From an uncultured SAR86 cluster bacterium (GTDB lineage Bacteria > Pseudomonadota > Gammaproteobacteria > Magnimaribacterales > AG-339-G14), in NCBI GenBank assembly GCA_902514645.1, contig CABXRO010000012.1, positions 1 to 32,675 on the forward strand: 32,675 bases of DNA, in the 5' to 3' direction. Both the position numbers and the translations under genes were made by a program. This document shows positions 1 to 32,675 of the stretch, in pieces. Under the pieces are notes generated by a model that saw only the letters and a list, made by a program, of their open reading frames with translations, was not told the origin of the DNA and did no database searches. Position 1 is the stretch's first letter; each line of letters opens with the position of its first letter.

Positions 1-611
1 TAAAAAAAAGAGAAGGAGACAAGATTGAAGTATTTAATTCGAAAGGGCAATTCCTTGAAGCATCTATTTCCCTTTTAAACAAAAAAACCTGTGAAATTTT
101 TTCAATAGGCGAGACAAAAATTCAAGAAAAATCCTTCCCAAAAATCTCTTTAGGCATTTCTGAAATAAAAAACTTTGAAAAAATTTTAAATGAAGTAACT
201 CAATTGGGAGTTTATCGAGTTGATTGCTTATCATCTGAAAGATCGAAGTTTTTGAAAAAACCTTCAGAAAAAAAAATAGAAAGATGGAAAAGAGTTGTTA
301 CGGGAGCTTGTGAACAATCCGGAAACAATTGGATGCCACAAATTGGACATAAGACCTTAGATGAATGGCAAATGGAAATACCATCGGAGAATAAGTTTTA
401 TCTAAATCCAGGAGAGAATAAAAATATTGAATCCTTGTCGAAATTAGATGAAATTTACTTTTCCATAGGCCCAGAAGGAGGCTTTTCTCCTAAAGAAATT
501 GATAAAATGAAATCCAATGGTTTAGAAGGTATCTCGCTTGGAGAGTTGGTTATCAAAACAGAAACGGTACCTACTGTATTATTGTCAATGTTAAAAATTT
601 TAAATAAATAA
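1..611 (+). CDS. rsmE: 16S rRNA (uracil-1498-N3)-methyltransferase, 5'-truncated by window edge
   Basis: Frame is open from base 3 (KKREGDKIEVFNSKGQFLEASI...), upstream of the listed ORF start at 204. Contains RsmE-like SxxRSxFL, ERWxRVxxxACEQSGN, IGPEGGFSxxEI and LGxxVIxTETxP motifs. Confidence 0.93.
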   Translation, partial: KKREGDKIEVFNSKGQFLEASISLLNKKTCEIFSIGETKIQEKSFPKISLGISEIKNFEKILNEVTQLGVYRVDCLSSERSKFLKKPSEKKIERWKRVVTGACEQSGNNWMPQIGHKTLDEWQMEIPSENKFYLNPGENKNIESLSKLDEIYFSIGPEGGFSPKEIDKMKSNGLEGISLGELVIKTETVPTVLLSMLKILNK

Positions 612-612
612 A

Positions 613-1548
613 ATGAAATTAGCTTTTGTAATGGATCCCATCTCTCAGATTTCTTATAAAAAAGATTCTACTTTAGCTATGATGGTTGAGGCTCAAGAAA
701 AAGGGCATGAAATTTTTTACATTGAGCCAAACTGTCTTTTTTTTAATTCTGACAAACCCTGTGCAAAATTTTCTCCTATTTCAGTTAAATATCAAGAATC
801 TAGCTGGTTTGAAAAAGGAGAAAATAACGTCTCATCTTTAGATTTCTTCGACGCAATATTAATGAGACAAGACCCTCCTTTCGATATGGGCTACATTAAT
901 AACACTTATATATTGGAGGCTGCCACAAAATTGGGAGTCCGAGTATTCAATGATCCAAAAGCCCTCAGAAATAACAATGAAAAATTGGCAATTCTTGATT
1001 ATCCTTCTTTAATTACCGATACCATAGTGTCTTCTTCAAAAGAGATTATTAAAGACTTTGTTGATACAAATTCCGAAGTAGTTATAAAACCTTTAGGTTT
1101 GATGGGCGGGGAAGGGATCAGAAGACTTCATCATAAAGACGAAGATCTTCTTGAAACTCTCGACTTGATTGATCAAAAAAAAGAAAAAATGATGATACAA
1201 AAATTCATTCCTGAAGTATTTGAAGGAGATAAAAGAGTTATTCTAATTTCAGGCGAAGATTGTGGTTTTTCTGTGACCAGGATTCCTCAAGGAGATGATT
1301 TTCGTGGAAATCTTGCTGCTGGAGGAAAGGCAGAAGTAAGAGAATTGAACAATAGAGATCTTGAGATTGTAAATGCTATAAAACCCAAATTGATCGAAAA
1401 CGGTATTTTGGTTGCAGGTATAGACATATTGGGATCCTTTCTAACTGAAATAAACATTACCAGCCCTACTTGTTTTAGAGAATTGTATGATCAACAAGGC
1501 ATAAATCTCGCTAAGGACTTAATTGAGAAGATAGAAAAAGCTTTTTAA
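613..1548 (+). CDS. gshB: Glutathione synthetase
   Basis: MDPI..I.YKKDST.AMM.EAQ..GHE, RQDPPFDMGYI, VIKPLGLMGGEGIRR, AAGGKAEVR, GIDILGSFLTEINITSPT are GshB signatures. Confidence 0.96.
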   Translation: MKLAFVMDPISQISYKKDSTLAMMVEAQEKGHEIFYIEPNCLFFNSDKPCAKFSPISVKYQESSWFEKGENNVSSLDFFDAILMRQDPPFDMGYINNTYILEAATKLGVRVFNDPKALRNNNEKLAILDYPSLITDTIVSSSKEIIKDFVDTNSEVVIKPLGLMGGEGIRRLHHKDEDLLETLDLIDQKKEKMMIQKFIPEVFEGDKRVILISGEDCGFSVTRIPQGDDFRGNLAAGGKAEVRELNNRDLEIVNAIKPKLIENGILVAGIDILGSFLTEINITSPTCFRELYDQQGINLAKDLIEKIEKAF

Positions 1549-1970
1549 TGGCGAATATCTTAGGCATAGATTACGGACAAAAATATATCGGTTATGCCAT
1601 CGGTAATGACATTACACTTACTTCCTCAATCCAAGGAACAATTATTTATAAAAATCAAAAAAAACTCTTTCAAGAAATACAAGATTTAGTAACCGAGTGG
1701 GAAGTAAAATTAATTATTTTAGGTCTTCCAATAAATATGGACGACACAGAAAGTGAAATGTCTAAAGAGGTTAGAGGTTTTAAGGAAAAAATAGAAAAAT
1801 CTTTAAACATAGTATGTAAACTTCATGATGAGAGACTGTCTTCTTTTGAGGCAAAGGAACAAAAGGAAATAATTAAAAAAAATAAGATACAACCTAATCC
1901 AGGAATTGACGCCTTAGCAGCTCAAGTAATTTTGGAATCTTGGTTAAGAGAAAAAAGTAAAAATGTCTGA
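1548..1970 (+). CDS. ruvX: YqgF/RuvX-type Holliday junction resolvase-like protein
   Basis: GIDYGQKYIGYAIG N-terminus, ILGLPINMDDTESEM, HDERLSSFEA. Adjacent to gshB as in many gammaproteobacteria. Confidence 0.92.
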   Translation: MANILGIDYGQKYIGYAIGNDITLTSSIQGTIIYKNQKKLFQEIQDLVTEWEVKLIILGLPINMDDTESEMSKEVRGFKEKIEKSLNIVCKLHDERLSSFEAKEQKEIIKKNKIQPNPGIDALAAQVILESWLREKSKNV

Positions 1971-3711
1971 TTTCATTCCTGAAGATTTTATACAAAAAGT
2001 TCTAGAGGATTCAGATATTGTCTCTCTAGTTGATTCTTATGTTCCTTTAAAAAGAAAAGGCAAAGATCATTGGGCGCAGTGTCCTTTTTGTGATGATGGT
2101 AGTAACCCATCATTTAGCGTGAGTGATCAAAAGCAATTTTATTATTGTTTTAAATGCAGAGCTTCAGGAAATGCTATTGGTTTTTTGATGAATTATCAGT
2201 CAAAAGATTTTGTTGGGGCTGTGGAAATTTTAGCTAAAAACCTTGGTTTGGAAATTCCAAGGACTAAATCAAACTATGATAGGGAAAAATTTGATGAATT
2301 ATTTCATTTTAATGATGAGGCTAAAAACTTTTATAAGAATAATCTTCTTAGGCCGAAGGAAGGAGAACACATAAGATCTTATTTGAAGGAAAGAGGAATT
2401 TCTGAAGAAATTTCAAAGGAATTTGAATTGGGTTTATGTTTGGAAGGTTGGGATAATCTTGTAAAACATTTTGAATCCAAAAAGATTGAAGCTAAAGAAT
2501 CTTCTAAACTTTTTAAAGTCGCAAAAAATGAAAGAAAGTATGATGTCTTTAGAAATAGATTGATTTTTCCTATTGTCTCTAGAAGAAACAAAATTGTTGG
2601 ATTTGGAGGAAGAGTCTTAGATGATGAAGATCAACCCAAATACCTAAATACTCCAGAATCCGAAGTATTCAAAAAAAGCAGAGAACTATATGGACTTCCA
2701 AATGTTTTAGAAAGAAACTCAAGACCAAGACAGATCTTAGTAGTTGAAGGTTATATGGATGTTTTGGCTTGTTTTAGTTTTGATTTACCTATTGCCGTTG
2801 CAACATTGGGAATAGCGACTAATAAATTTCATTTAGAAACACTTTTTCAAAAGACAGATGAAGTTATTTTTTGTTTTGATGGAGATGAGGCAGGTAGAAA
2901 TGCCTCAAAATTAGCACTCGAAATAGCTATTCCAGTTGTTAAAGATGGTAAAAGAGTTAAGTTTTTATTCTTACCAGATGATCATGATCCTGCAAGTCTG
3001 CTGTTAGAGAAAGGAAAAGATGAACTACCTAAGCTAATTAACGATGCAACAAATCTTTCTGACTATTTATTTGAAAGCATTCTAAAAAAACACGACAGCT
3101 CTTTAGAAGGAAAGGCTGCAGCATCCAAAGAGTTTGTTTCTATAGTGAAGCCCATGCAAGAAGGCAACTTTAAAACTATTCTTATCAATGAGTTTTCAAA
3201 AAAAATGGATATTGATCTTAGTGAAATTTCACCAACAAAACCAGAAGCTAAAAAACATTCTCAAACAGAGGACATGCAAATGGATTTCAGCAAGGTAATC
3301 AAGAGTTTATTAAAATGCATTATTCATAATCCAGATTTAGCTAAATCAGAACACTTGGATTATTTTATAGATAACAATGAGTTTTTAATCAGCCCCTTAA
3401 TCTCTTTTTTGAGAGCAAAATCAGACGTATCTTTTTCTATGATCATCCAAGAATTTCCTGATCAAAAAAATATTCTTATAGATCTATCAAATGATCAAAA
3501 CCTAATTAGTTCTGATGAGGGTTTGAAATTTATAATGCAGGCAGTAGAGTATATCGAAAGAAATCAAGGAGATAACCTTTTACAAAAATTGAAGATAATG
3601 CATGAAAAAAATGAATTAGACCCTAAAGAAAAAATAGAACTTAAAAAGCTTCTTACTGCTAAATTTGAGCATCTTTCTAAGGACGAACTATCCTTATTTA
3701 AAAAGCTCTAA
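1963..3711 (+). CDS. dnaG: DNA primase
   Basis: Zn-finger CPFC..(x)..CFKC, GFGGRVLDD, YLNTPES..F.KS..LYG, VVEGYMDV, CFDGDEAGR TOPRIM motifs. Confidence 0.97.
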   Translation: MSDFIPEDFIQKVLEDSDIVSLVDSYVPLKRKGKDHWAQCPFCDDGSNPSFSVSDQKQFYYCFKCRASGNAIGFLMNYQSKDFVGAVEILAKNLGLEIPRTKSNYDREKFDELFHFNDEAKNFYKNNLLRPKEGEHIRSYLKERGISEEISKEFELGLCLEGWDNLVKHFESKKIEAKESSKLFKVAKNERKYDVFRNRLIFPIVSRRNKIVGFGGRVLDDEDQPKYLNTPESEVFKKSRELYGLPNVLERNSRPRQILVVEGYMDVLACFSFDLPIAVATLGIATNKFHLETLFQKTDEVIFCFDGDEAGRNASKLALEIAIPVVKDGKRVKFLFLPDDHDPASLLLEKGKDELPKLINDATNLSDYLFESILKKHDSSLEGKAAASKEFVSIVKPMQEGNFKTILINEFSKKMDIDLSEISPTKPEAKKHSQTEDMQMDFSKVIKSLLKCIIHNPDLAKSEHLDYFIDNNEFLISPLISFLRAKSDVSFSMIIQEFPDQKNILIDLSNDQNLISSDEGLKFIMQAVEYIERNQGDNLLQKLKIMHEKNELDPKEKIELKKLLTAKFEHLSKDELSLFKKL

Positions 3712-3749
3712 TAGATCAAAATTTAATAGTTAAGACTTTCAAACTTATA

Positions 3750-3755
3750 TATAAT
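3750..3755 (+). promoter_or_regulatory. Possible rpoD-proximal -10 element (TATAAT)
   Basis: Exact TATAAT 15 nt upstream of the rpoD ATG in the dnaG-rpoD gap. No convincing -35 at canonical spacing. Confidence 0.3.
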
Positions 3756-3769
3756 CAACATCCCAAAAT

Positions 3770-5554
3770 ATGATTGACGACGATTTAGAGAATAGTGGGC
3801 TGAGAGAGCTCATAGAAAAAGGTAGAGAACAGGGATATATTACCTTTGCCGATATAAATGATTACTTGCCAGATGAAGTTTCAGATCCTGATCAACTTGA
3901 TGAGGTAATACAGATAATCAATGACTTAGGGTTGCAAGTTTTAGAAGAGGCCCCAGAAGAGGGTTCTAATTTTTCTCCTGCAAATCAAGATACTCCTGAA
4001 ACACCAACTGAAAATGAAATGGGTACCATTGAGTCGGAAGTTGGAAGAACTACAGATCCTGTTCGACTCTACATGAGAGAAATGGGCTCTGTTGATCTTT
4101 TGACCAGAGAAGGAGAAATTGCAATTGCCAAACGTATTGAGGAAGGAGCAAGAGATCTGCTCCATGCTTGTGCTTTTTATCCAGGAATCATTGAAGATGT
4201 TTTGTTGGAATATGAATTAATAAAAAAAGAAGATAAAAGAATTACAGATTTAGTAGTTGGTTTTATGGATGAAGAAGAAGACCTTCCTCCTTCAGCTCAA
4301 GAAGTTGCAGCTAAAGCAGATGATGATGAAGAAGAAGACGTGGGCATTAACATGGAAGAACTTGCAAAAAGATTTTCTTCTGTAAAAAGACAATATAACA
4401 AATCACAAAAAACGATTGCTTCTTCTGGAAGAGACAATGACAAAGCTCAAAAAGAACTAGACAAGCTCGGTGAAATTTTTAAATTTCTTAAACTTTCTCC
4501 AAAAAGATTTGAGACCATATCATTAACTGCTAGAGCTTTAGCAAAAGCCATTAGAGATTCGGAAAAAAAGATTTACGATATTTGCACACAAGACTGCAAT
4601 ATGCCTAGGAAAGATTTTTTAGAAATATTTAGAGACAATCAAACGAATTATAAATTTTTAGATAGCACAATACGTTCTAAAAAAAATTACGCAAAGCTTC
4701 TTAAGGATGTAAAGCCCGATGTAAATAAAATTCAAAAAAGAATTCTTTTGCTTACTGAAAATGTTGGTATGACCGTACAAGAGCTTAAAGATATAACTTC
4801 TAAAATGGCAAAAGGCGAAACAAAAATTAGAAGGGCAAAAAAAGATATGATCGAAGCAAATTTAAGATTGGTTATTTCCATTGCAAAAAAATACACCAAC
4901 AGAGGGCTTCAATTTCTGGATCTTATTCAAGAAGGAAATATTGGCCTCATGAAAGCTGTAGATAAATTTGAGTATAGAAGAGGATATAAATTTTCTACAT
5001 ATGCTACCTGGTGGATCAGACAAGCCATTACGAGGTCAATTGCCGATCAAGCAAGGACAATCCGTATTCCGGTCCATATGATTGAGACAATAAATAAGCT
5101 AAACAGAATTTCACGCCAAATGCTTCAAGAAAACGGTAAAGAACCTTCACCAGAAGAATTATCTGAGAAAATGGACATGCCGGAAGAAAAAATCCGCAAA
5201 GTTTTGAAAATTGCCAAAGAACCGATTTCCACTGAAACACCAATTGGTGACGAAGACGACACAACTTTAGGAGACTTCATTGAAGATCCTTTACAAGACT
5301 CTCCTATAGATGCAGCTACAGAAAACAATCTTCATGATGCAACAGATGGAGTCTTGTCTAGCTTGACGGCAAGAGAGGCTAAAGTTTTAAGAATGAGATT
5401 CGGGATTGGCATGAATACTGACCATACTTTGGAAGAGGTTGGCAAACAATTTGATGTCACTCGAGAGAGGATTAGACAAATTGAAGCAAAAGCATTACGC
5501 AAGCTTAGACACCCATCTAGATCAGGGCATCTTAAAACTTTCCTAGACGAATAA
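3770..5554 (+). CDS. rpoD: RNA polymerase sigma-70 factor RpoD
   Basis: Region 1.1 start, [86 protein letters not shown], and region 4 [22 protein letters not shown]. Confidence 0.98.
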
Positions 5555-5581
5555 ATTCATTCAGAATGTTATTAAATTTTA

Positions 5582-5658
<77 letters not shown>

Positions 5659-5709
5659 CTTTATTTAACGCAATGATTTTTTTAAAGATACATATTTGTC
5701 ACGTAGTGA

Positions 5710-7803
5710 TTAATTTGCATTAATTTCTTGTTGCAAAATTACTCGTCTTTCATCTATGAAACGTTTTATAGACGCTCTTGCAGGGTTACAAAACCCGGCT
5801 TCATTTCCTTCAATTTCTTCAGGATTATATGCATCCGCACATCCACTACCGCCATCTAAATTTGCTGGTCTTATGGCAGCATCGGTCGAGAGAATAGCCT
5901 GATCAAGTCGATTCTTTCTTTCCTGAAGCAAAGGACCAACTATGGACCAATTGAAAAATTCGTTCAAAATACTTTGAATTTCTTGATACAGAGCAGCCTT
6001 ATTGCTTTCCTCACTAAAAACTAAATTCCAGAGTATCGGCGGGTCATTAGGATAGAATTGCTCTCCTACCCAATGTGGATTATTGCCTGAAGGAAATGCT
6101 CTCATCTCGATAATGTCTGTAAAAGCATCATAATTCAAAGGCGTACATACGTTTAAGGTTGGATTGTTATCGCAATCATATCCAGGTACATCAATAAATG
6201 TGTAGTCGAAATCGTTTGGCATATAAACCCATTTATTGGTATGTTCATTGAAGTAAAGATAATAATTATTGGCAACACGAACATAATGATCTACTGCACC
6301 CACAACAATTTCTGCTGCCTGAGCCTTAATAAAACCCGGGATATCAAATTTTTGTCCTAGCTCTGCCACAGATGGATTACTTTGTACAAATTGAGCAAAT
6401 TCTCTAAACGCTATTCTTGCATCTGCTATAGATTTCTTTTTAGTTTTCAGATCATAAGTTGGCCTGTAGGGCAGAAACTGTGATACGTTTCCGATAGCGA
6501 TTCCGTTAGCATCTTTTGCATTAATTTCAGTGTTAACAAAATTTGGATTCAAATAATTGGCTGTTCCCAACCATTCCTCTGCCGAATCCGGATCTGATTT
6601 CTCAACACCAATAACACAAAAATTTGTATTAAAGAAAATAGTGGTATCTTCATAAGGATCACAATTGGCATTAAGAACAGGCACGCCAGCTAAGTTGCCA
6701 GGCGCTCCAACTTTAAATAAATAATTGTTTTTATCAAAGTATCTTTTCAAATATGGTTTATCGACTTGTTCCATCATTGTAAAGACACCCATGTTGTAAG
6801 TCCGAGGAAGTGCTTGACCATATAAGGTTTGACCAGCAGCTCCAGTTATTACGAGCTCTACTTGAGCATGGGTAGCTCTTGCTACAGGAACTCCAATTTG
6901 ATTCAGTAACTGATGCGTCAAAACTTCTCTTTGATAACTTGGATCGTCTCTATTGAAGCGAAATCTTAATTTTTCAACTCCCATGAATACTCTATCGTCT
7001 GCTTCCGGATATTCAGGAATATTTTGTGCAACAATTCCTAAACAAGGCAGACCAGGACCAACTGATGCTGGTGTTCCGTTAGCATCAATGCAAGCATATA
7101 CACTTTCATCTTCATCAAACTTTTCATCAAATTTAATAGCAAAACTAAATCGACGAGGTTTGGGCGGGGTACTTTCATAATCAACCGGATACTGCCTACT
7201 TGTATTACCCTGCATTTTAAAGCCCACATTTGAAACAAAGCCAAGGGAAGCTCCCTGATCATCAAGGTAATCAAAATCTGCCTGGCGGTAAATTTCACTG
7301 TGGGTCCAAGATGTCCAAGTTAAAGCAGGTCCACTGGCATCGTTGATACTGTAATTTGAACGAAGCGTGTCGAGCTCAAAAGCTCTCCATTCCTCATAGG
7401 TCATGGTGAGGCGAATTTTATGAAGACGATCTAAAGAAAACAAAGAGGTGCTCTCATCATTTGAACAATTTATTTCTATGCCATTCACATTATTTTGCCC
7501 TACAACACCTGTCTCATTCGCAATTGTGCAATCTTGTCTAGCAGGTTCTCTTTCAATATCTACCTTATATGCATCGCCCTCATTTAATTGTTGGTTGAAA
7601 GAAAAACTCCCATCCTGCGGAACTGACAAATTTTCAGAATTTAAAGATAATCCAATACTTCGAATATTATCCATGCCATTAATGGTGCCACTTATAGAAT
7701 ATGCAGGAATAGGTGGTTGAACCGGAGACGATCCACCACAACTAAGGAGAGACAAAGTCAGAAAGGTTCCCAAAAAAAAATTTAGCAATAACTCCTTATA
7801 CAT
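5710..7803 (-). CDS. CotH kinase family protein, predicted lipoprotein
   Basis: Lipobox-like LSLLSCGGSS. CotH core: LHKIRLTMTYEEW, FKMQGNTSRQYP, KLRFRFNRDDPSYQREVL, GVFTMMEQVDKPYLKRYF, NYLFKVG, WVYMPNDFDYTFID. Confidence 0.85.
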   Translation of the reverse strand: MYKELLLNFFLGTFLTLSLLSCGGSSPVQPPIPAYSISGTINGMDNIRSIGLSLNSENLSVPQDGSFSFNQQLNEGDAYKVDIEREPARQDCTIANETGVVGQNNVNGIEINCSNDESTSLFSLDRLHKIRLTMTYEEWRAFELDTLRSNYSINDASGPALTWTSWTHSEIYRQADFDYLDDQGASLGFVSNVGFKMQGNTSRQYPVDYESTPPKPRRFSFAIKFDEKFDEDESVYACIDANGTPASVGPGLPCLGIVAQNIPEYPEADDRVFMGVEKLRFRFNRDDPSYQREVLTHQLLNQIGVPVARATHAQVELVITGAAGQTLYGQALPRTYNMGVFTMMEQVDKPYLKRYFDKNNYLFKVGAPGNLAGVPVLNANCDPYEDTTIFFNTNFCVIGVEKSDPDSAEEWLGTANYLNPNFVNTEINAKDANGIAIGNVSQFLPYRPTYDLKTKKKSIADARIAFREFAQFVQSNPSVAELGQKFDIPGFIKAQAAEIVVGAVDHYVRVANNYYLYFNEHTNKWVYMPNDFDYTFIDVPGYDCDNNPTLNVCTPLNYDAFTDIIEMRAFPSGNNPHWVGEQFYPNDPPILWNLVFSEESNKAALYQEIQSILNEFFNWSIVGPLLQERKNRLDQAILSTDAAIRPANLDGGSGCADAYNPEEIEGNEAGFCNPARASIKRFIDERRVILQQEINAN

Positions 7804-27555: not shown

Positions 27556-28806
27556 TCAATAAATTCTTCTTATTTGTTTTAATTCTTGGGAACTATACGA
27601 TTCCCTCCTCAAAGAAAGCTTGCTCCAAACATTGTCTAGTGAAGATAAAAATCTATTTATGTCTTCAGCTTGATGCTTAGGAGTTATAGTTACTCTGAAT
27701 CTTTCATCTCCTTTAGGAACTGTCGGATAAAAAACAGGCTGAATGTAAATTCCATAGTCTTCAATGAGAAGATTTGCCGCTTCTTTACATAACCTAGGAT
27801 CCTCCAAGTGAATCGGAATAATATGACTATCATTATCAAGATGAGGTATTTCCAAATCCCTTAAACCTGTTCGAATTAAATCTGAATTTTTTCTAATATC
27901 TTCACGAAGATTTTCTGATTTTTTTGCAATCTCTATGGCCTTGATTGAAGCCGCTGCAATACTTGGATTTGCGGACGAAGTAAAAATAAAACCAGGTGCA
28001 AAGCTTCTTATGAAATCTATTATGTCCGAACTTGCGGCCACATACCCGCCCATTTGACCAAAAGCCTTAGATAAAGTTCCGTTTATAATGTCAATGTCAT
28101 CAGCAACATTTTGTTCGTTAGCAATTCCTCTTCCTTCTGACCCGTATAGACCAACAGAGTGAACCTCATCTAAATAAGTAAGTGCATTGAACTCCTTCGC
28201 AAGAGAAACAATTTGTTTCAAGGGAGATCTGAGACCTTCCATTGAATAAAGAGACTCTAAAACTATGATTTTTGGAACACTTGCATTAGAAGTGTTCAAA
28301 AGTTCTCTTAGATGACTAACATCATTGTGTCGGAATATGTGACAAGGAACATTAGCATTCTTGATGCCCTGAATCATGGAAGCATGATTAAGCTCGTCTG
28401 AAAAAACCTCAACACCCTCTAATTTTTTACAAAGCGTCCAAAGAGTAGATTGATTTGCGGTGTAAGCTGAAGGAAAAATTAAGCTTGCTTCTTTGTTGTG
28501 TAAATTAGCTAGCTCTCTTTCTAAATCAGCATGGTAAGAAGATGTACCTGAAATGTTTCTTGTACCTCCAGAACCAGTACCTAATTCTTGGATTACTTCG
28601 ATCGACTTTTCAATAACTTCTGGATGTTGACTCAAATTTAAGTAATCGTTGCTACACCAAACTTCCACTGGTCTCTCATTACCCTCGAATCTTTCTGTTG
28701 CTTTTGGGAAGTGTTTTTTATCCCTATTGATCTCTCTAAATTTCCTATAAAGTCCTTGAGACTTCAATGAAGTCAGCTCATCGGAAAAATATTTTTTGTA
28801 ATTCAT
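27556..28806 (-). CDS. hemA: 5-aminolevulinate synthase (Shemin/C4 pathway)
   Basis: ALAS-type rather than BioF/Kbl: CSNDYLNLSQHP, GTGSGGTRNISGTSSYHADLERELA, HASMIQGI, DEVHSVGLYG, DIINGTLSKAFGQMGGYVA, SHIIPIHLEDPRLCKEA, GIYIQPVFYPTVPKGDERFRVT. Confidence 0.9.
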   Translation of the reverse strand: MNYKKYFSDELTSLKSQGLYRKFREINRDKKHFPKATERFEGNERPVEVWCSNDYLNLSQHPEVIEKSIEVIQELGTGSGGTRNISGTSSYHADLERELANLHNKEASLIFPSAYTANQSTLWTLCKKLEGVEVFSDELNHASMIQGIKNANVPCHIFRHNDVSHLRELLNTSNASVPKIIVLESLYSMEGLRSPLKQIVSLAKEFNALTYLDEVHSVGLYGSEGRGIANEQNVADDIDIINGTLSKAFGQMGGYVAASSDIIDFIRSFAPGFIFTSSANPSIAAASIKAIEIAKKSENLREDIRKNSDLIRTGLRDLEIPHLDNDSHIIPIHLEDPRLCKEAANLLIEDYGIYIQPVFYPTVPKGDERFRVTITPKHQAEDINRFLSSLDNVWSKLSLRRESYSSQELKQIRRIY

Positions 28807-28915
28807 CTCATCTCCGTCTGGAATATGGTGATTACTATAGACTTAAAACTCTTGAAACTGAATAATTATCTAGATGGGATTATAATAATATAGTTGTTTA
28901 TAAGGATTGGTTATA

Positions 28916-30415
28916 ATGGATGAGCTTAGAATAATTTCAAGAAAAAGCACTCTTGCCAAATTACAGGCTGTAGAAGTTGCTGAAGAAATTGGAAAAAAAT
29001 TTCCATCACTAAAAATAGCTTTCAAAACCAAAGACACTTCGGGTGATATAGACCTTACCACCCCTCTACACAAAATGCCTGAAATAGGAGTCTTTACATC
29101 AGATATCAGAGAAGAACTACTTTCCGGACAGGCTGATATTGCAGTACATTCCTGGAAAGATCTTCCAGTAGATCTAGAGCAAGGAACAGAAATAGCTGCA
29201 ACTATAAATAGAGCGGACTCTAGAGACGTTTTGATTTTTAAAAAAGATTCTCTAAAAAAGAAAAGCATTAACATCTTCACTTCATCTCCTAGAAGGCAAG
29301 AAAATTTATCAAATTTTTTAAAAAAAGCACTACCCTTGGAAATTTCTTCTTTGCGTTTTAGTGATATCAGAGGAAATATTCTTACCAGATTCCTTAAGCT
29401 GATGAATTCAGATGCCGATGGTTTGGTTTTAGCTAAAGCGGCTCTAGACAGGTTGCTATTTCCAAAGACGGAAAGTACGACTGAATTAAATTCTCTTAAA
29501 AATGATCTAAAAAAATTCTTATGGATGGTAATTCCATCTTCACAAAATCCATGTGCTCCTGGTCAAGGAGCATTAGCCATTGAGGTAAAATCTGGAAACT
29601 CAAAAATCATAGAATTAATCAGTAAAATCAATAACTTAGATGTTTTTAAAGATGTAGAAACCGAAAGAAAAAAACTAAAAAAATTTGGCGGAGGTTGTCA
29701 TCAAAAAATTGGAGTCAGCATAGAAAATCATCCTTTAGGAAAAATAATTACGGAAAAAGGTTTAACCCCAGAAAATGAGTTAATTAATAATAGGTCTTTA
29801 GTACCTTTCAAAAGAGAACTGACAAGATTCAAAAATCCTGTAAATGACTTCTTCCCAAAATTGAAAAAGGATTTTAATTTTTTTAAACGTTCAAAAATTA
29901 AAGAAGGTACAAAAGAAATTGAGACTATGAAAAATTCTGGTTTGTATATATCCAGAGCAAGTTCAATAGAAAAGGGTACTTCAATTGATTATTCTAATAT
30001 TGTTTGGACGAGCGGTATTGAAAATTGGTTCAAATTAGCTAAGAAAGGAGTTTGGGTAAACGGTTCTTCGGATAGTTTAGGAGAGGAACAATCTAAACCC
30101 AGTTCATTTTTTAAAAAGGTTAACTGGTTTCTTGTTTCTCACGAAGATTCAGATCCGAAAGATAAAAAACTTTTGGCAACATACAAACTAGTTCCAAAAA
30201 AAGATATAGGAGACCTAACGCGATACTCTCATTTTTATTGGATGTCTATTAGTTCTTTTAGGGAAGCGCTGAAAAGATTTCCAAGCATTGAATATGCAGA
30301 ACATTCTTGTGGCTTGGGCAAGACCTTTGATGAGTTAAATAAATTATATCCAAATAAAATAAAGCCATTTTTAAACTATGAAGACTGGCTGGAAAAAGTA
30401 AAAGAAGCAAAGTAA
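28916..30415 (+). CDS. hemC: Porphobilinogen deaminase with ~190 aa C-terminal extension, possible HemC-HemD fusion
   Basis: LRIISRKSTLAKLQAVEVAEEI, GVFTSDIREELLSGQADIAVHSWKDLPV, SSPRRQENL, IRGNILTRFLKL, GQGALAIE, cofactor Cys in FGGGCHQKIG. C-terminal FYWMSISSFREALKRFPSIEYAEHSCGLGKTFDELNKL resembles the last third of HemD. Confidence 0.85.
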   Translation: MDELRIISRKSTLAKLQAVEVAEEIGKKFPSLKIAFKTKDTSGDIDLTTPLHKMPEIGVFTSDIREELLSGQADIAVHSWKDLPVDLEQGTEIAATINRADSRDVLIFKKDSLKKKSINIFTSSPRRQENLSNFLKKALPLEISSLRFSDIRGNILTRFLKLMNSDADGLVLAKAALDRLLFPKTESTTELNSLKNDLKKFLWMVIPSSQNPCAPGQGALAIEVKSGNSKIIELISKINNLDVFKDVETERKKLKKFGGGCHQKIGVSIENHPLGKIITEKGLTPENELINNRSLVPFKRELTRFKNPVNDFFPKLKKDFNFFKRSKIKEGTKEIETMKNSGLYISRASSIEKGTSIDYSNIVWTSGIENWFKLAKKGVWVNGSSDSLGEEQSKPSSFFKKVNWFLVSHEDSDPKDKKLLATYKLVPKKDIGDLTRYSHFYWMSISSFREALKRFPSIEYAEHSCGLGKTFDELNKLYPNKIKPFLNYEDWLEKVKEAK

Positions 30416-30437: not shown

Positions 30438-31433
30438 ATGGCAAATTTTAAAAGAAAATATCCTCTTACAAGGTTAAGAAGAATTAGATCGAATAAATCT
30501 ATCAGAGATCTTATTGCGGAAAGCAAATTATCTATCGATGATTTGATTCAACCAATTTTTGTAAAAGAATCTCTAAAAGATAAAGAAGAAATAAAATCCC
30601 TCACTGGAATTTTTAGACATTCAGAAAAAAGTGTTATCAAGGAAATTGAAGAGCTTATGAACTTAGGCATTAAAGCAGTAGCAATATTTCCTGTAATTGA
30701 TGAAGATAAAAAAGACGAAAAGGGTTTAGAGTCAGTCAATGAAAATAATTTTCTCAATAATATCATTAGGATAATAAAGCAAAAGTTTCCTGAGATGTTA
30801 GTCATTGCAGACGTTGCATTAGATCCTTACACAAATCATGGACATGATGGCGTATTAAATTCAGATGGCGATGTTGATAATGATGAGACGCTCAAAATTC
30901 TAGAAGATCAGGCACTGAAGCTAGCTCAAGCAGGCACAGACATCATTGCTCCTTCTGACATGATGGACGGCAGAATTGGGGTTATAAGAAAAACTCTAGA
31001 ACAAAAGGATTTTAAAAATACTATGATTTTAGCTTACTCTGCAAAATACAGTTCAAAGTTCTATGGTCCTTTTAAGGATGCGGTAGAATCTGCAAAATTT
31101 TTTGGTAATAAAACAAAAGATACTTATCAAATGGCTGTAGCAAACATTGATGAAGCGCTTCATGAGGTTGCCTTGGATATAAATGAGGGCGCTGACATTG
31201 TAATGGTAAAACCAGCTATGCCTTATCTTGATGTTGTAAAGGCAGTAAAAGAAACATTTCAGATGCCCACTTTTGTGTATCAAGTAAGCGGAGAATACGC
31301 TATGTTGAAAGCAGCAATCGAAAAAAACTGGCTGAGCGAGGAAGTAATGTTTGAATCGCTTCTTTCTTTTAAACGAGCTGGTGCGGATTGCATCTTAACT
31401 TATGCCGCAAAAGAGATAGCAAAAAATCTATAA
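30438..31433 (+). CDS. hemB: Delta-aminolevulinic acid dehydratase (porphobilinogen synthase)
   Basis: RLRRIRSNKSIRDLIAESKLSIDDLIQPIFVKE, DVALDPYTNHGHDGV, APSDMMDGRIGVIR, AYSAKYSSKFYGPFKDA, DIVMVKPAMPYLDVV, YQVSGEYAMLKAA. Metal loop lacks the Zn cysteines. Confidence 0.96.
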   Translation: MANFKRKYPLTRLRRIRSNKSIRDLIAESKLSIDDLIQPIFVKESLKDKEEIKSLTGIFRHSEKSVIKEIEELMNLGIKAVAIFPVIDEDKKDEKGLESVNENNFLNNIIRIIKQKFPEMLVIADVALDPYTNHGHDGVLNSDGDVDNDETLKILEDQALKLAQAGTDIIAPSDMMDGRIGVIRKTLEQKDFKNTMILAYSAKYSSKFYGPFKDAVESAKFFGNKTKDTYQMAVANIDEALHEVALDINEGADIVMVKPAMPYLDVVKAVKETFQMPTFVYQVSGEYAMLKAAIEKNWLSEEVMFESLLSFKRAGADCILTYAAKEIAKNL

Positions 31434-31441
31434 TTCTCAAT

Positions 31442-31984
31442 ATGCCTAACTCTAGGTTTAAAAATGCTTTGAATCGGGTTCCTCAGGAAATTCCGCCAAT
31501 CTGGTTTATGCGCCAAGCTGGCAGATATCATGATCATTATCAAAATCTTAAGAAATCTTATTCTTTTGTTGAGCTCTGTAAAAGTCCAGCTTTGTCTGCT
31601 CAAACTGCATTGGGCCCAATAGAAGAATTCGACTTTGATGTGGCTATTTTGTTTAGCGACATTCTTTTTCCCTTGGAATCTTTGGGCATGGATTTGATTT
31701 ACGATCCAGGTCCAATATTTAAAGAAAATTTATCGGAGAAAAATGTCACAAAAATCTTTACCAACAAAAATCCCATTTCTTCTCTAGAATTTCAAGGAGA
31801 GGCAATAGAAAGAACAATGGAGCTACTTCCGAAAGATAAGTCGATGATTGGCTTCATTGGTGGACCATGGACATTGTTGTCTTTTGCCTCAGCGAAAAAT
31901 AAGTTAGAAAAATCAAATAAACTTAAAAGTTACCAATGGTCAATTCTAGAGGAACATATCTATCCTCTTTTACATCAAAATTGA
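31442..31984 (+). pseudogene. hemE: Uroporphyrinogen decarboxylase, 3'-truncated (about N-terminal half only)
   Basis: PPIWFMRQAGRYHDHYQNLKKSYSFVELCKSPALSAQTALGPIEEFDFDVAILFSDILFPLESLGM, GFIGGPWTLLSFA, then stop after 181 aa; HemE is typically ~340-350 aa and the C-terminal half is not found in any downstream frame. Confidence 0.8.
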
Positions 31985-32046
31985 TCTCTCAAAGATCTAA
32001 ACCATTTAGAGGCTAAGTCTTTTTTTTCGTCTAAACTTCTTGTCAT
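31975..32046 (-). pseudogene. hemF: hemF-like (oxygen-dependent coproporphyrinogen III oxidase) 5' stub
   Basis: ATGA overlap with hemH stop; MTRSLDEKKDLASKWFRSLRDQF* resembles HemF N-termini (..A.xWF..LRDxIC..FE..). Terminates where hemE terminates on the other strand. Confidence 0.6.
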
Positions 32047-32675
32047 AGTTGGGATATTTTATTGGTAATTAATTTATTGATAGCTTCAACATGCTCATCA
32101 CTGTCATTTAAGCAGGCGATGTAGTGAAAAGCCTCCCCTCCAGATTCTAAGAATATTTCTTTATTCTCTTCATCAATCTCTTCTATAGTTTCTAAACAAT
32201 CCATACTGAACCCGGGCGATAAAATTAAGATTTTTTTAGTGCCTTCTTTAGGTAATTTTTCCATCAATTCGCTTGTATAGGGCTTTAACCACTCTCTTCC
32301 AGCTGCTGCCAATCTTGATTGAAAACTTGTGACGTACTGATCCTCTTCAAGACCTAGAGCTTCTCCAACTAAACGAGAAGTCTTCTGACAAAAACAGTGA
32401 TAAGGATCTCCTTCGTCAAAGTATTTTTTAGGAATGCCATGATAAGAAAAAACTACCTTATCCTGTTTTCCATAGAATTCATGAGTTTTAATAGTTTTTG
32501 CTAATGCGTTTATATAATCAGAGTTATCGTGATAACCGCTTACAAAATGCAAACTAGGTACCCATCGCCATTTTGAAAGAACCCCGCTCACCTTGTCGAA
32601 TATAGTTGCAGCAGTGACTGCAGAATATTGAGGAAACAAAGGTAAGAGTAAAATTTTACGACAATTTTTATTCTT
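32043..32675 (-). CDS. hemH: Ferrochelatase, N-terminus beyond window edge
   Basis: Frame open to the window end (KNKNCRKILLLPLFPQYSAVTAATIFDKV). FSYHGIPKKYFDEGDPYHCFCQKTSRLV, SFQSRLAAAGREWLKPYT, LILSPGFSMDCLETIEEID. Confidence 0.95.
   Translation of the reverse strand, partial: KNKNCRKILLLPLFPQYSAVTAATIFDKVSGVLSKWRWVPSLHFVSGYHDNSDYINALAKTIKTHEFYGKQDKVVFSYHGIPKKYFDEGDPYHCFCQKTSRLVGEALGLEEDQYVTSFQSRLAAAGREWLKPYTSELMEKLPKEGTKKILILSPGFSMDCLETIEEIDEENKEIFLESGGEAFHYIACLNDSDEHVEAINKLITNKISQL

Follow-up and report, generated by a model that had tools for sequence, protein, structure and literature searches.

The window analyzed here, a 32,675-nucleotide stretch of SAR86 DNA, closes on a heme biosynthesis locus in which hemE, on the plus strand, and hemF, on the minus strand, are interrupted at a single point, and this raises the question of whether the organism has dispensed with two consecutive steps of heme synthesis or whether the contig misrepresents its genome. 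The initial annotation offered both options, a deletion or an assembly-type junction, but was silent on the fact that the end of the window, at 32675, is also the contig's own end. The source assembly (G000) totals 938,843 bases over 36 contigs, at a completeness of about 70%.

The coincidence of the two breaks is borne out by the reading frames. The hemE frame, opened by the ATG at 31442, enters the other arm of the join beyond 31981 and then meets a TGA finishing at 31984; this stop position is the one first reported, but the product amounts to 180 amino acids plus stop, not 181 amino acids. On the minus strand, an ATG at 32046 that overlaps the hemH stop opens a frame of 23 codons terminated by a TGA at 31977-31975. 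This stub had been likened to a HemF N-terminus, and the objection that it might bear no such resemblance falls away, since 19 of its 23 residues are identical to the HemF start of one congener (E 3e-11 in that single comparison). The full-length URO-D domain of a functional HemE is absent, with only part of the profile matched (Table 1), and for the full-length Coprogen_oxidas domain of a functional HemF the ~70% complete assembly gave no match, only the 23-residue stub. The hemH gene is truncated too, in this case by the contig end, with 210 of 338 codons present.

Table 1. Features of the heme locus at the end of the window
Feature	Position	Strand	Remarks
hemC, hydroxymethylbilane synthase, long form with C-terminal extension	28907..30415	+	Left arm of join, intact; TIGR00212 193 bits (cutoff 164); collinear with congeners
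hemB, porphobilinogen synthase	30438..31433	+	Intact; NF006762 473 bits; collinear with congeners
hemE 5' half, about 180 of 340 codons	31442..31981	+	Cut by join; URO-D profile positions 1-154 of 346; alignments to 13 of 14 congeners stop at 31980/31981
Join point, 6-nt microhomology CAAAAT	31976..31981		Common to hemE (sense) and hemF (antisense)
hemF 5' end, first ~22 codons	31982..32046	-	Inverted relative to hemE; 19/23 identical to congener HemF; antisense alignment in 14/14 congeners
hemH 3' two thirds, 210 codons	32043..32675	-	Inverted relative to hemE; Ferrochelatase profile positions 111-316 of 317; stops at contig end

The arrangement of the same genes in close relatives indicates the nature of the join. 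Within a comparison set of 15 same-genus genomes, hemE was recovered in 14 and is of full length in all of them, and in these 14 congeners the genes follow the uninterrupted, single-strand order hemC>hemB>hemE>hemH>hemF>; in one of them (L033) hemE, hemH and hemF overlap at their ends, with a HemG-like flavodoxin next in line. As hemE, hemH and hemF lie on one strand in the congeners and hemF and hemH run backwards in the window, the join reverses orientation. Forward alignments of the window stop at 31980/31981 in 13 of the 14 congeners, and at 31965 in L044, the most distant, whereas reverse alignments run from 31976 to the contig end in all 14. The two breakpoints are separated by 1,560-1,562 bp in 13 of the congeners and by 1,585 bp in the most distant. 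In the two genomes closest to the window in hemE (L036 and L042), CAAAAT is found at both breakpoints, and the window holds a single copy of it, at 31976-31981. Across congeners, the bases shared at the join number 5-6, and chance alone was computed to give an overlap of at least 6 nt in 0.28% of inverted joins placed at random in the heme operon.

Two other accounts of the join were considered and rejected. A contig of mixed source would be expected to betray a foreign arm, of which there is no sign, the identity to congeners being much alike on either side. The small inverted repeat (GATCT..AGATC) that had been linked to the join also fails as its cause, for GATCTCTCAAAGATC is native hemF sequence, ordinary coding sequence that is present in relatives too, and between 31900 and 32100 the sole inverted repeat of at least 8 bases has no part in the join.

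What should lie beyond the join is absent from the assembly. The 3' half of hemE, the 5' part of hemH, the 3' part of hemF and the downstream genes were not found elsewhere in the ~70% complete assembly, and neither were intact copies of hemE or hemF; a positive-control stretch of the same relative was readily located. When contig ends were mapped onto a 680-kb contig of a relative (G003), about 26 could be placed, and inverted joins were detected at two of them, namely the end of the window and the start of contig C7. In the latter (L091, bases 1-190), bases 6-190 lie in opposite orientation to bases 186-6000, about 0.66 kb apart and with a 5-bp overlap, within a gene that, from a reading of its sequence, we take to be lnt. 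The site is uninterrupted in 11 relatives, and L184, the most distant of those compared there, shares this arrangement, though its boundary is less sharp. Some 9 kb is missing between the two joins, which confront each other from its opposite edges, a pattern that poor amplification of the true template would produce. A single larger inversion linking both fold-backs can be dismissed: in G003 coordinates the breakpoints are partnered 287383 with 285822 and 277055 with 276396, which is not the pairing that such an event demands.

The copying of a sequence backwards onto itself is the usual artefact when single-cell DNA is amplified. Plate-style AG-/AH- names, a form of identifier given to single-cell genomes, are carried by 11 of the 13 named congeners, and from these names and the fragmentation of the assembly we infer that the source is a single-cell genome obtained by multiple displacement amplification (MDA). 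In single-cell Escherichia coli MDA, inverted chimeras made up 85% of the 475 recorded and usually lacked the stretch in between; where the segments lay less than 10 kb apart, 93.5% of the inverted ones showed complementarity at the join, ranging up to 21 bases (Lasken and Stockwell 2007, PMC1855051). A rate of 1.5 misassemblies per 100 kb is quoted in a benchmark of a single-cell pipeline (PMC11247762). The combination of an inverted join, a short distance and microhomology is the signature of MDA chimeras. Taken together, we hold with high confidence that the last ~700 bp of the window are an inverted chimera that arose when the DNA of one SAR86 cell underwent whole-genome amplification and that was subsequently assembled, which is to say that the assembly-type junction, as favoured by the inverted join, the microhomology and the missing continuation, was the better of the two options first offered. 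Two observations count against this reading: no self-inverted repeats were found among the contig ends (up to 6 kb each), so that the assembly is not full of fold-backs, and both flanks of the join lie in one contig, gap-free.

The chimera could have arisen as follows. In the middle of hemE, the 3' end of a growing plus strand, with the terminal sequence ...CATCAAAAT-3', would have been displaced by the strand-displacing polymerase and would have re-annealed through six bases to ATTTTG in the sense strand of hemF, on the same branched molecule and 1.56 kb downstream. Extension of the re-annealed end would then have proceeded backwards through the start of hemF and into hemH, and the true continuation, being under-amplified, would have been lost from the assembly, leaving the chimeric arm as the contig end. 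On this account the living cell very probably carries hemE, hemH and hemF whole and synthesizes heme; the breaks almost certainly reflect no real loss, and there is no evidence for the loss of hemE or hemF by the organism.

The alternative that comes closest to accommodating these data, though a very unlikely one, is a real and very recent in-place inversion of about 1.56 kb in this cell or strain, spanning the 3' half of hemE, hemH and the 5' end of hemF between CAAAAT and ATTTTG, which would break hemE and hemF and turn hemH against the operon. Its left junction would look exactly as observed, and the contig stops short of the point at which its distal junction would come. Nonetheless, that distal junction and everything beyond it are absent from the assembly, the event would disrupt an operon that is collinear in all 14 congeners, and a second, independent fold-back sits at the facing contig end, with four breakpoints that do not fit one larger inversion. 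Nor is there any sign of relaxed selection: the omega (dN/dS) values of the hemE and hemH pieces against congeners, 0.04-0.14, are similar to those of intact sister pairs, and the two higher hemH values trace to L040 and L041, which carry a 1-nt indel, and not to the window. Both pieces are under normal purifying selection, their codons show no erosion, and gene decay is ruled out by the omega values. It is less likely still that a genuine recent inversion of this size has left a SAR86 cell unable to finish heme synthesis and dependent on outside heme.

Lower again in probability is a purely computational misassembly, in which the assembler took a wrong graph path via a short repeat and no chimeric molecule ever existed. 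CAAAAT is indeed common to both sides of the join, but six bases fall far short of the k-mers with which assemblers usually work, and the two sites were not seen to share any longer repeat; hence, the assembler would need chimeric reads to produce the join. Least credible of all is the ancestral layout proposed in the initial annotation, hemB-hemE> <hemF-hemH, with about 1.3 kb deleted and two consecutive heme steps lost: it accounts for two frames stopping within 10 bp of each other and for a stub that is HemF, but the convergent layout occurs in none of the congeners, hemE, hemH and hemF sharing one strand in 14 of 14, a deletion cannot reverse orientation, the breakpoints are 1,560 bp apart, and the loss of function lacks support in a group whose members carry the operon intact and at a break that sits at a chimeric contig end.

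More generally, no heme auxotrophy should be read from G000, whose interrupted genes coincide with a chimeric contig end and in which two inverted joins flank one unrecovered stretch, one at each edge. Before gene loss is claimed from a single-cell draft, comparison with congeners should establish whether an inverted join lies close to a contig end.

The comparative survey also yielded several observations on the heme genes of SAR86. The window carries a 5-aminolevulinate synthase (ALAS) gene region on the minus strand (27556-28806), and SAR86 families f1 and f2 (genomes G000-G060) encode this enzyme of the C4 pathway, with TIGR01821 above cutoff in most, without glutamyl-tRNA reductase. In families f3 and f4, which belong to the same order, the situation is reversed: glutamyl-tRNA reductase is encoded (14 of 15 or more) and no ALAS scores above cutoff. 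Within this single gammaproteobacterial order, the heme precursor pathway appears to have been switched; among the papers searched, none matched SAR86 together with aminolevulinate synthase. The HemB of the window is 65-69% identical to that of alphaproteobacterial records named as PS1 clade, OCS116 cluster or Rhodobiaceae (L064-L066, L068, L071, L076), and 65-70% identical to that of more distant SAR86, which are scarcely closer than the alphaproteobacteria. These identities, together with ALAS, suggest that the heme cluster may have moved between alphaproteobacteria and SAR86. Families f1 and f2 have a divergent HemE, with full-length URO-D scores of ~207-249 bits versus 355-388 in f3, and that of L033 (3232-4251) falls under the NCBIfam hemE cutoff (200 versus 303 bits). 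In a metagenome-assembled relative (G002, C2:274398-275601) ALAS is split into two overlapping frames, probably by a frameshift error. In the hemH genes of L040 and L041, a run that is A7 in most other congeners (CATTCCAAAAAAAATATTTTG) reads A8 (oriented positions ~4450 and ~4037), with a frameshift in mid-gene for which sequencing error, a true frameshift and transcriptional slippage are all candidates.

Set against known systems, the locus resembles in its parts the SAR86 heme operon, hemC-hemB-hemE-hemH-hemF-(hemG-like), its hemE and hemH pieces being in frame and 83-92% identical at the DNA level to most congeners; the operon is whole and on one strand in those genomes, whereas in the window it is cut in mid-hemE and then continued backwards. 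A contig-end inversion at the same heme locus is found in another draft SAR86 genome of the same family (G024, contig C10; L078/L079; 30,231 bp), which bears a 7,152-bp inverted repeat at both ends, 99.99% identical and ending in the hemE tail. This is probably another amplification or assembly palindrome, but its arms are much longer than those of the window, nearly identical to each other and 15.9 kb apart. The closest likeness is to the inverted chimeras of Lasken and Stockwell (2007, PMC1855051), in which genuine local sequences are joined with the second segment inverted, mostly less than 10 kb away and with the stretch between lost, through 2-21 nt of complementarity. Here the second segment is inverted relative to the true genome order in 14 of 14 congeners, the distance is 1,560-1,562 bp in 13 of the 14, the complementarity is the 6 nt of CAAAAT, and the phenomenon recurs at the start of C7, the one further case among the ~26 mapped ends. 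Their chimeras were seen in single reads, whereas ours lies in an assembled contig, and the origin of its DNA is presumed.
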